Part shown: piece after piece, positions 48,270 to 51,195 of the stretch | How the letters are laid out: each line of letters opens with the position of its first letter | Numbering within the stretch: the stretch's first letter is position 1 | Assembly: GCF_006546835.1 (NCBI RefSeq) | Contig: NZ_VICB01000004.1 | Span: forward strand, 124,001 to 188,000 | Direction: 5' to 3' | Source: Actinomyces johnsonii | GTDB taxonomy: Bacteria > Actinomycetota > Actinomycetes > Actinomycetales > Actinomycetaceae | DNA: 64,000 bases | Translations under genes and position numbers: made by a program | Notes under the pieces: generated by a model | What the model was told of the DNA's origin: nothing | The model's input: the letters and a program-made list of their open reading frames with translations, nothing else | Databases searched by the model: none

Positions 48270-48845
48270 TCAGATGTAGATGGTCGGGTCCATCATGAGC
48301 TCGGGGTCGGTGCGAGGGTCTCGGGCCCGGCTGGGGACACCCACTGCGACGTGCCCCTGCGGCAGGTTCTTCACCAGTACCGCGTTGGCTCCGACCTTGG
48401 CGCCATCCTCGACGATGACCGGCCCCAGAACCTTGGCGCCGGCGCCGATCTGCACGTTGTTGCCGATGGTGGGATGACGCTTGCCGGGACTCATGGACAC
48501 TCCGCCAAGAGTCACTCCGTGGAACAGCAGGACGTCGTCGCCAACTTCGGCCGTCTCACCGATGACCACTCCCATACCGTGGTCGATGAAGAAGCGCTCG
48601 CCGATGACTGCGGCTGGGTGGATCTCGATGCCGGTGAAGTTTCGGGCGGCCTGGGACAGGGCGCGTGCGGCGAAGCGGTGCCCTTTGTGCCACAGCTTGT
48701 GGGCGGCTCGGTGCGCCCACAGAGCGTGAACGCCGGGATAGAGGAGTGCAACCTCCAGGTTGGACCGGGCGGCGGGGTCGCGTCTGCGGGCCGTGGCCAG
48801 GTCCTCGCGGGCCAGGTCCAGCAGGGACCGTTTGGAGTTGTGCAT
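48270..48845 (-). CDS. cysE: Serine O-acetyltransferase
   Basis: A 191-aa enzyme making O-acetylserine from serine and acetyl-CoA, the substrate of CysK. It has the short N-terminal helical region of CysE and a hexapeptide beta-helix: '[19 protein letters not shown]', with the catalytic His in '[19 protein letters not shown]' and the later 'LFHGVTLGG'. It lies 129 bases downstream of cysK on the same strand. A hairpin in between may reduce read-through. Confidence 0.95.
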
Positions 48846-48974: not shown

Positions 48975-49904
48975 TCAGTCGAGGAAGTCCTTGTACAAGG
49001 GCGTGCTCAGGTAGCGCTCACCGGTGTCCGGCAGGACGGTGACGATGGTCTTACCCGCCAGCTCGGGGCGCCTGGCCAGCTCGCTCGCGGCGGCCAGGGC
49101 AGCGCCTGAGGAGATGCCTACGAGGAGGCCCTCCTCCGCGGCGGCGCGGCGTGCGTAGGTGATGGCGACGTCGGACTCGATGTGGAGCAGCTCGTCCCAG
49201 ATTTCCTGGTCGAGGATCTCGGGAACCACGTTGGGTCCGAGGCCCTGGATCTTGTGGGGAGCGGCCTTCCCCTCGCTCAGCAGCGGGGACTCGGAGGGCT
49301 CGACGCCGTAGATCTTCACCCCGGGCTTCTCCTGACGCAGGACCTGGCCCACGCCGGTCAGCGTGCCCCCGGTGCCGATTCCGGCGACGAAGACGTCGAT
49401 GTCGCCCTCGGTCTGCTCCAGGATCTCCCGGGCCGTGGCCTCTCGGTGGACCTTGGGATTGGCGGGATTTGTGAACTGGGAGGCCAGGATCGAGTTGGGG
49501 GTGGCCGCCTGGATCTCCTCGGCGCGTTTGACCGCACCGGCCACGCCGCCCTCGGAGGTCAGCACCAGCTCGGCGCCGAAGGCCCGCATAATGGCCCGTC
49601 GCTCCTTGGACATGGTCTCAGGCATGGTGATGATGACCTTGTAGCCCAGGGCCGCTCCCACCATGGCCAGGCCGACGCCGGTGTTGCCGGAGGTCGCCTC
49701 CACGATGGTGCCGCCGGGTTTGAGGGCGCCGGAGTCCTCCGCGGCGCGGACGATGGACAGGGCGATACGGTCCTTGACCGAGGAGGCCGGCTCGAAGGCC
49801 TCGACCTTGGCCAGAACGGTGGCGGGCGCGCCATCGGTCACGCGGTTGATACGAACCAGCGGAGTGTTGCCGACCAGGGCGGTTGCGTCGGGTGCGTAGG
49901 TCAT
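48975..49904 (-). CDS. cysK: Cysteine synthase A (O-acetylserine sulfhydrylase)
   Basis: A 309-aa PLP enzyme that makes cysteine from O-acetylserine and sulfide. Lys44 in 'SSVKDRIALSIV' binds PLP; 'EATSGNTGVGLAMV' and 'GIGTGGTLTGVGQVLR' bind substrate and phosphate. The C-terminus 'STPLYKDFLD' is normal. The start at 49904 follows AAAGGAC. Its long leader (about 255 bases from the upstream small frame) holds a Met/Cys-rich reading frame and hairpins, which suggests control by sulfur amino acids. Confidence 0.96.
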   Translation of the reverse strand: MTYAPDATALVGNTPLVRINRVTDGAPATVLAKVEAFEPASSVKDRIALSIVRAAEDSGALKPGGTIVEATSGNTGVGLAMVGAALGYKVIITMPETMSKERRAIMRAFGAELVLTSEGGVAGAVKRAEEIQAATPNSILASQFTNPANPKVHREATAREILEQTEGDIDVFVAGIGTGGTLTGVGQVLRQEKPGVKIYGVEPSESPLLSEGKAAPHKIQGLGPNVVPEILDQEIWDELLHIESDVAITYARRAAAEEGLLVGISSGAALAAASELARRPELAGKTIVTVLPDTGERYLSTPLYKDFLD

Positions 49905-50077
49905 AGTGATGTCCTTTGAGGTTTGCGGGTTGAATGAGCCCTCGGTGCCGATACCGGCGCCTTTCCGAGACGAGGTGGCGCCGGGCCCGCGGGAGAGCCC
50001 GTGAGAATGACAAAAGAGGTGGGGGGAGACGGTCCGCGTCCGTCGTCAATGGGCAGCCATACTGCGTCGAGTGGGTG

Positions 50078-50102
50078 AAAACAGCAGGAGAGACCGCCTG
50101 CT
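50078..50102 (-). terminator. Attenuator-like terminator in the cysK leader
   Basis: Read leftward, AGCAGG (50102-50097) pairs with CCTGCT (50088-50083) around an 8-base loop, followed by G and TTTT (50081-50078). It is a short intrinsic terminator lying between the leader peptide and cysK, 4 bases beyond the first leader hairpin. Confidence 0.5.
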
Positions 50103-50106
50103 CCGG

Positions 50107-50160
50107 GAGCGCCGGGCATGCGCGCAGCGGTACGCGCACGGATGTCGTGGCCTGGCGCTC
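50107..50160 (-). promoter_or_regulatory. Leader hairpin beginning at the stop codon of the small frame
   Basis: Read leftward, GAGCGCC (50160-50154), whose first base is the last base of the TAG stop, pairs with GGCGCTC (50113-50107). Inside, GGC pairs with GCC and GTGCGCG with CGCGCAT. A ribosome stalled on the final Cys codons would cover the 5' arm. The freed 3' arm (GCTC) can instead pair with GAGC at the foot of the terminator hairpin. Confidence 0.5.
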
Positions 50161-50228
50161 TACCTACACCGGCAGCATCGACACATGGACATGGGGGACA
50201 TGGCGCACATGGCGGTCATGGCCATCAT
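50160..50228 (-). CDS. Met/Cys-rich leader peptide upstream of cysK
   Basis: A 22-codon frame with Shine-Dalgarno AGGAGG at 50232-50237. Two consecutive ATGs start it; the second (50225) has the better spacing of six bases. The peptide has 7 Met and 5 Cys and ends MSMCRCCRCR before TAG. That composition is extreme and its position before cysK points to a regulatory peptide whose translation senses Cys (and perhaps Met) supply. Cys-rich small frames act as cysteine-responsive attenuators in mycobacteria; those are leaderless, unlike this one. Function is inferred. Confidence 0.68.
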   Translation of the reverse strand: MMAMTAMCAMSPMSMCRCCRCR

Positions 50229-50427
50229 GGTCCTCCTGTCCTCGGGGCGGCTGACTGCGCCTGCCCGTGTCTGGGCTGCTCGTGAACTGATCCGGGACCG
50301 TTCCGGCCCGGCTTTCGCTGAAACACTACCCCGTGTCCCGCTGCGATGACCGCATTCTGGGGTCGACTGTGTCACATCGCGGTGGGCCCTGAAGCTCTGG
50401 AGGCGTGCGGATCGTGTGTCGGCCATG

Positions 50428-51195
50428 TCATGCAGACGATGGCAACGGGACCTCGACCAGACGGCTTCCGGCGGGCTCGGCAATCCCCTCGCCCCGCGTA
50501 AGAGCGGCCAGCGGCTCCCGTAGGAGAGCCGGGTCGGCGAAGGGTGTTGCCAGGATGAGAACGGCGTGGGTCGGCCCCCAGATGGTCTCCTCCACCTGGA
50601 TCGAACGATGACCGTCATGGTCGCCGCCGGTGACATCGCGGGAACGCAGTTCGGCCTCGATCCTGCCGGCCTGGGCGACCGGTACCCGCAGGTCCCACAG
50701 GTGACGCCGGATCAGCTCGACGCGCGAGGCGCGGGCCAGTGCCCGGGCAGTGGCCTCCGAGTAGGCGCGCACCAGGCCTCCGGTCCCCAGAAGCGTCCCA
50801 CCGAAGTAGCGGGCGACGACGACGGTCGTGTTGGCTAATCGCGTTCCCCGCAGTGTCTCGAGCATGGGCTGGCCCGCCGTACCCGAGGGCTCGCCGTCGT
50901 CGTTGGAGCGCTCAGTAGGGTGGTGCGACGCGGTCGGGGCGCCGGACTCGGAGAGCACGGTGACAGTCATCGCCGAGCAGTGATGACGCGCATCGGGGTA
51001 AGCGGAACGCACTCGTGCGATGAACTCGCGGGCCTCGTCCATGGTGTCCGTGCGGCGGGCTCTCGCCAGGAAGTGCGACCTCTTGATCTCCAGGTCGATC
51101 TCAGGCTGCTCGCCATGAGCCAGCGTGACCAGCCCACGGGGGCCATCGTTGCGAGCAGGTCGGCGGGAGGATGTGCCGGGGGCGTGTGAGGCCAT
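50428..51195 (-). CDS. YigZ/IMPACT family protein
   Basis: A 255-aa soluble protein. The UPF0029 (IMPACT) N-terminal domain carries 'IKRSHFLARARRTDT', 'ARHHCSAMTV', 'SNDDGEPSGTAGQPML' and 'VVVARYFGGTLLGTGGLVRAYS', which is diagnostic. The C-terminal DUF1949-like part follows. Related proteins are linked to translation regulation, but the role in bacteria is unclear. A Pro/Arg/Gly-rich N-terminus of about 30 residues may be shorter if a later start is used. Divergent from rpmF. Confidence 0.9.
   Translation of the reverse strand: MASHAPGTSSRRPARNDGPRGLVTLAHGEQPEIDLEIKRSHFLARARRTDTMDEAREFIARVRSAYPDARHHCSAMTVTVLSESGAPTASHHPTERSNDDGEPSGTAGQPMLETLRGTRLANTTVVVARYFGGTLLGTGGLVRAYSEATARALARASRVELIRRHLWDLRVPVAQAGRIEAELRSRDVTGGDHDGHRSIQVEETIWGPTHAVLILATPFADPALLREPLAALTRGEGIAEPAGSRLVEVPLPSSA

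Follow-up and report, generated by a model that had tools for sequence, protein, structure and literature searches.

The window, by which we mean the whole stretch of 64,000 nucleotides analyzed here, harbors on its minus strand the genes cysK and cysE, preceded by a short leader ORF and by a hairpin that starts at the leader stop codon (Table 1). The gene upstream of the leader encodes a YigZ/IMPACT relative scoring below the family cut-off, and 255 bases lie between the leader stop and the ATG of cysK (49904). The leader peptide (50228-50160, minus strand) is MMAMTAMCAMSPMSMCRCCRCR, followed by the stop, and contains 7 Met and 5 Cys. The initial annotation had described this 22-codon minus-strand frame with its AGGAGG, two ATG codons, Met and Cys content and distance from cysK, and all of these were confirmed when the coordinates were read again; it had overlooked the main part of the element, the hairpin. 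A mechanically called ORF of 158 aa (50160-50636) shares the frame of the leader. It was taken as not real; where it begins, it runs across the upstream gene in a different frame. Peptides of this kind are overlooked by genome annotation.

Table 1. Features of the cysK-cysE leader region, in window coordinates
Feature	Coordinates	Strand	Remarks
Possible -10 element, TAGTGT	50323..50328	minus	found by eye; about 95-105 bases before leader ATG; by analogy to 29/47 relatives; weak
Leader Shine-Dalgarno, AGGAGG	50232..50237	minus	3 bases 5' of first ATG
Leader ORF	50160..50228	minus	22 codons (21 from second ATG) plus TAG; kept across relatives
Terminal Cys codon, UGU	50166..50168	minus	invariant, 116/116 loci
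Hairpin	50107..50160	minus	begins at G of stop codon; RNAalifold, pair counts, covariance searches
Spacer, hairpin to cysK	49917..50106	minus	C-rich, G-poor
Local hairpin in spacer, AGCAGG/CCTGCT	50083-50102	minus	
Palindrome in spacer, GACGG-ACGCGGA-CCGTC	50028-50044	minus	hairpin or DNA operator
cysK Shine-Dalgarno, AAGGA	49912..49916	minus	
cysK, cysteine synthase A	48975..49904	minus	TIGR01139 above cut-off
cysE, serine O-acetyltransferase	48270..48845	minus	TIGR01172 above cut-off; next gene after cysK

Across the window, 19 short frames (12-45 codons) preceded by a Shine-Dalgarno (SD) sequence were counted. Only two of these entries have at least 3 Cys within the last 8 residues, and both are the leader frame, counted twice, so that it is the sole SD-led short frame with a Cys-rich end in the window. 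In 20 triplet-shuffled windows none of 316 SD-led short frames had such an end, which bears out the earlier claim that chance would rarely produce one. The leader frame in front of cysK is genuine and not a product of chance; its conservation across the genus, described below, is stronger evidence for this than the chance test within the window.

Leader and hairpin in Actinomyces

The initial annotation had proposed comparing the frame and its Cys codons with other Actinomyces, and both proved to be conserved, at 47 loci. Among 49 Actinomyces genomes searched, 48 have a cysK orthologue, and in 47 of these it is preceded by leader and hairpin. In the remaining one (G047) cysK is present and the element was not found; in the cysK tree the branch of this genome (L124) is longer than those of the remaining Actinomyces rows. 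In G037, an assembly 89% complete, only weak cysK paralogues were detected and no orthologue. The cysK of G028 has an internal stop in the sequence as assembled, and by cysK the closest genome of the genus set is G017 (98% identical). The leaders have 16-31 codons, all with an SD and an open frame, and usually follow the pattern V-M-[RC]-x-M-S ... C-C-x-C-R, then UAG. An SD word of at least 4 bases stands at the best in-frame start in 47/47 loci, and at least 2 Cys occur in the last 8 residues in 46/47. The V-M-[RC]-x-M-S part (50228-50190 in the window) is kept inside the genus and not outside it.

Of the 47 loci, 29 carry a promoter-like site of the form TTGAC-N(16-21)-TANNNT, lying 71-167 bases upstream of the leader start; shuffles would give 0.10 such loci. 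The window locus is outside these 29, having no such site, and a sigma-70 scan of it gave 0 promoters. Together, the SD words and the promoter-like sites upstream suggest that translation of the leader probably starts from an SD behind an untranslated 5' region, and is not leaderless.

The outer helix of the hairpin pairs AGCGCC-A-GGC with GCC-C-GGCGCT, plus G50160 with C50107, and carries a one-sided bulge; in the inner helix GTGCGCGT is paired with GCGCGCAT. Unguided RNAalifold on a MAFFT alignment of the 47 loci (A1) returned one structure, a two-part hairpin of 17 pairs from the stop codon, with a small covariation term (-0.67 of -29.69). Pair counts were made on two further alignments. 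In a MAFFT alignment (A2), 99.5% of cells are paired and 6 of the 17 pairs show changes on both sides, a level reached by 0 of 500 shuffles. In alignment A3 (54 sequences from 54 loci, genus and family), which was fitted to the model and so leans toward the structure, both-side changes occur in 14/17 pairs and 71 cells, compared with at most 6 pairs and 9 cells in slid controls and with 0/500 shuffles as high. The predicted hairpin is therefore backed by compensatory changes. Within Actinomyces its outer helix and GUGCG/CGCAU part are more constant than pairing requires, and in other families (f8, f9, f12) the outer helix persists but the apical portion has changed. Searches with Rfam 15 gave three tRNAs and no match to the hairpin over the whole window at the gathering score, and no match over 49850-50430 at E up to 1. 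A pairing between the leader end (CAGUGUC-like) and the bulge (GACACUG-like) is perfect in some species, but was rejected, as its pair counts were no better than those of shuffles. No conserved downstream partner for the 3' arm was found in the alignments read. Stretches resembling (G)ACGG-NCGCGRA-CCGT(C) recur at the position of the spacer palindrome in many, though not all, Actinomyces loci.

Distribution of the element and sequence of the leaders

The family was searched with a covariance model (R1) and with a second one trained additionally on family members (R2). R1 matched 92 of 213 family genomes at E 0.1, and R2 matched 111 of them, in 18 of 36 genera, at E 0.001. When second copies within the same genome were sought, R2 gave a single strong match, the next having an E of 1.2. 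Outside the genus, 42 of 45 first-round family matches lie upstream of cysK, as do 4/4 later family matches; L112, L121 and L122 lack cysK and were dropped as false. Leader and hairpin thus precede cysK, mostly as cysK-cysE, in 46 checked loci from other genera of the family. In the order, 396 genomes were searched and 107 matched at E 0.05, of which 24 are members of the family. Outside the family 25 of the 83 genomes, mostly the best-scoring, were inspected, and gave 23 loci upstream of cysK and 2 false matches. These 23 loci belong to the families coded f8, f9 and f12, the last with one locus.

At the level of the class, 27 of 394 genomes matched at E <=0.05, which is about chance level, and cysK is downstream in 0 of the 27 loci inspected (L161 being outside the 27). 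A scan of 29 cysK upstream regions, from 178 class genomes, for SD-preceded frames with a Cys codon two before the stop found two frames, neither of this kind; the criterion overlooks leaders with an extra codon. By eye, leaders of another known type (RRR..D..R...C.C) were seen upstream of cysK in L248 and L255. The latter matches NF042934 above the cut-off, and the former matches NF042933 weakly. The class holds two kinds of cysK leader.

A pattern scan returned 35 records: 24 from Actinomyces, 8 from Georgenia, 1 from Oceanitalea and 2 from Gordonia. Both Gordonia records have leader and hairpin directly 5' of cysK-cysE. In the family of Gordonia, 151 genomes were searched, with 5 matches, of which 2 are true, and a third Gordonia-group genome of this family also has leader and hairpin directly before cysK-cysE. 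In a tree of 56 cysK proteins, these three Gordonia-group rows (L204, L226, L235) and a class-level cysK lacking the leader (L241) nest with a member of the Actinomyces family (L098; support 95/96), and this group joins Georgenia-type rows (support 88/94); the root of the tree is arbitrary, and 2 of 7 Actinomyces rows were left out as their loci were too short. L198 was left out of the analysis, being from the same genome as L142. The tree suggests that the Gordonia-group leader-cysK was likely acquired by horizontal transfer, with leader loss in L241, other readings being possible.

The checked loci number 116, namely 47 from the genus, 46 from the rest of the family and 23 from other families of the order. 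All 116 have an SD word of at least 4 bases at the best in-frame start. This, with the promoter-like sites in 29/47 Actinomyces, upholds the earlier view that the leader is SD-led, unlike the leaderless frames of mycobacteria. At least 2 Cys are found among the last 8 residues in 105/116 loci, and UAG stands two codons past the terminal Cys in 103/116. The terminal Cys codon is UGU in every locus, compared with 70 of the 330 remaining Cys codons of the same leaders, a contrast to be read with the preference of the search model for UGU at this position, where the weight of a single base is small beside the scores. Single-Cys leaders exist (L094 and the three Gordonia-group leaders), so that such leaders do not require several Cys codons in a run. 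In eight loci (L079, L095, L106, L116, L120, L141, L197 and L019) a sense codon replaces the stop after the terminal Cys, and the frame ends 5 codons on, within the hairpin.

The initial annotation had also suggested that the leader reads both Cys and Met. At least 2 internal Met occur in 45/47 Actinomyces leaders, but in only 5/46 from other genera of the family and 9/23 from other families, while the terminal Cys codons are kept. Since only the Actinomyces leaders are rich in Met, sensing of both Cys and Met is unsupported and this part of the proposal was dropped.

Predicted control of cysK

The ORF, its SD, the Cys codons, the hairpin and the linkage to cysK are conserved. As the pair of leader and hairpin recurs in many relatives, it is probably a switch that raises cysK output at low cysteine, and we consider it probable that the region acts on the cysK-cysE operon as a cysteine-responsive attenuator, read by an SD-initiated ribosome. 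We infer leader translation, pausing at the Cys codons and the direction of the response. The ribosome would initiate at the strong SD and make a short peptide ending in Cys codons, the last being the UGU two codons before the stop. With ample Cys-tRNA, it would reach UAG, cover the 5' arm of the hairpin and then depart. With scarce Cys-tRNA, it would pause at the Cys codons shortly before reaching the hairpin, which would then fold alongside transcription. The state of the mRNA when RNA polymerase and the next ribosomes meet the spacer would set cysK output, high if cysteine is short.

The outer helix was modelled without a ribosome, with a paused ribosome (placed two codons before the terminal Cys) and with a ribosome at the stop. 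Its mean probability in these states was 0.61, 0.75 and 0 in the genus (47 loci), 0.90, 0.88 and 0 in the family set (42 loci) and 0.93, 0.95 and 0 in the order set (25 loci), the zero at the stop being imposed by the mask. Placing the ribosome on the terminal UGU gave a genus mean of 0.21, and in 16/47 Actinomyces loci the helix had a probability below 0.5 in the full leader. The hairpin is modelled as present both free and paused, and thus thermodynamics alone cannot separate these two states. The modelled geometry fits attenuation read by a ribosome.

For the output step in the window species, we would guess at Rho-dependent termination in the C-rich spacer with a confidence approaching an even chance; control of cysK translation is possible, and something else is rather unlikely. 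A C-rich, G-poor stretch before the gene is a feature of composition shared with Rho-dependent leader attenuators. The C-G skew of the spacer averages 0.264 in the genus (47 loci, lowest 0.15) and 0.281 in the family (35 loci). In 37 leader regions of the window it averages 0.024 (sd 0.157), but this control has a strand effect, its minus-strand regions averaging about 0.10. The skew of the window spacer itself (0.20) is not exceptional among minus-strand leader regions. In a matched control with 30 Actinomyces loci, which are related and so do not give independent comparisons, the spacer had a skew of 0.258, compared with 0.041 in the cysK-cysE gap (exceeded in 30/30 pairs) and 0.037 in the stretch before the leader (exceeded in 28/30). 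In some low-GC relatives the spacer from hairpin to cysK is as short as 38-45 bases, which leaves little room for Rho loading.

Control of translation could take the form of attenuation in which the cysK SD is held in a pairing with the leader end, and a ribosome paused on the Cys codons frees it. This relief of leader-SD pairing is the mechanism reported for mycobacteria, and we regard it as a tentative reading here. In a permutation test that ignores kinship, pairing of the cysK ribosome-binding region with its own leader was stronger than with permuted ones in 40 loci from other genera of the family (-11.86 versus -10.66, sd 0.36, p 0.0012), but not in 46 Actinomyces loci (-11.82 versus -12.53, p 0.99). 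Against shuffled leaders, 14 low-GC loci had a mean p of 0.24, with 5 at <=0.1, whereas 26 high-GC loci had a mean p of 0.60, the GC split having been chosen after the data were seen. One leader, L119 (G050), has a 13-base perfect complement to its cysK ribosome-binding region. At the window locus, the SD is unpaired with a probability of 0.32 when free and 0.55 with a paused ribosome, and 0/40 shuffled leaders were as low; this is one among 114 loci, over which accessibility with real and shuffled leaders was 0.44/0.44, 0.50/0.47 and 0.48/0.48, at mean percentiles of 0.53, 0.60 and 0.49. L047 was left out of the permuted-partner and accessibility tests, L079 and L116 out of the permuted-partner and GC-split tests, and loci with cysK more than 260 bases away out of the accessibility test. 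In these models, hiding of the SD is backed in part, in some low-GC relatives only, and not in Actinomyces.

It is unlikely that the hairpin is a regulatory element in itself, such as a protein- or ligand-binding or RNA-processing site, to which the leader merely delivers ribosomes. The excess constancy of the outer helix and GUGCG/CGCAU sequence in Actinomyces and the fixing of the terminal UGU at the RNA level would agree with such a role, but the bulge and apical part vary between families, which leaves no constant binding pocket, and the Cys codons next to the hairpin are kept while the remaining peptide changes. Classical attenuation of the trp/his type, with an intrinsic terminator after the hairpin, seems more improbable still. 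Although its geometry is present, with a leader ORF and stop and then a hairpin that would have to give way to a terminating ribosome, and in the window the local AGCAGG/CCTGCT hairpin is followed by GTTTT, a pattern scan of 49880-50450 found 0 intrinsic terminators, neither a second hairpin nor a tail is common to the 40 Actinomyces loci viewed (of 47), and by eye several low-GC relatives with spacers of 38-45 bases lack a terminator. That the peptide itself acts, for example in metal binding or redox through its Met and Cys, is very improbable, since the richness of Actinomyces peptides in these residues is set against leaders outside the genus that have little in common apart from SD, terminal Cys and position, with Met not kept, and against linkage to cysK throughout the checked true loci.

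We return to the cysteine-responsive attenuator read by the ribosome. With some hesitation, we put forward that it may form a new class, in which a single UGU, fixed two codons before the stop, is set against a stop-codon hairpin. Rho or cysK translation would be gated by where the ribosome stands on this junction rather than by a Cys run or a terminator/antiterminator exchange, and the cassette with cysK-cysE would have moved horizontally into Gordonia.

Relation to known leaders

The polycysteine leaderless short ORFs of mycobacteria were reportedly tested by Canestrari et al. 2020 (Mol Microbiol). That study is cited in passages of PMC9031893 and PMC13236596, and passages of PMC4633059 show that these ORFs were first proposed in 2015. 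In its passages on cysteine, PMC1262725 (Seliverstov et al. 2005) predicts Cys leaders in Mycobacterium, Propionibacterium acnes and Bifidobacterium longum cbs; like the present leader, these are Actinobacterial and have runs of Cys codons close to the stop. According to the same passages the Mycobacterium leaders are not followed by conserved hairpins, and Rho is proposed; they give no leader for Actinomyces naeslundii, which is in the genome list of that paper. Annotated Actinobacterial leaders like the present one are also represented by the NCBIfam models NF042933 (Ms5788A family Cys-rich leader peptide) and NF042934 (putative leader peptide); the window peptide, four other leaders of its kind and the Gordonia leader gave no match to either at E up to 10. 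A metNIQ leader of S. lividans with Cys and Met codons is reported in a passage of PMC8079986. In the literature searched, where subscription papers were thinly covered, we found no report of the present leader or hairpin in Actinomyces.

Attenuators of the trp/his type resemble the present element in having a leader ORF, regulatory codons near the stop and a hairpin whose 5' arm is covered by the terminating ribosome. They differ from it in their intrinsic terminator and competing hairpin: here the pattern scan found no terminator, and the one candidate competing pairing was unsupported. The junction of the fixed UGU and the hairpin offers a clear handle on the coupling between ribosome pausing and output where an intrinsic terminator is lacking, in a simple, testable design of leader, hairpin and cysK. 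The element also adds a conserved RNA structure that is absent from Rfam 15.

The closest likeness is to the mycobacterial polycysteine ORFs, in which Cys codons also stand at the end of a short ORF upstream of cysteine genes, and cysteine is proposed to be sensed through ribosome speed. Those ORFs are leaderless, whereas the leader of the Actinomyces type is SD-led with an untranslated 5' region. The present element further differs from them in its hairpin at the stop, its terminal UGU, its linkage to cysK-cysE and the lack of support for SD hiding in Actinomyces. The SD-led start, the hairpin at the stop codon and the invariant UGU set the element apart from the known Cys leaders. With it this kind of cysteine leader, leaderless in mycobacteria, comes to include SD-led examples from the family of Actinomyces and from neighbouring families.
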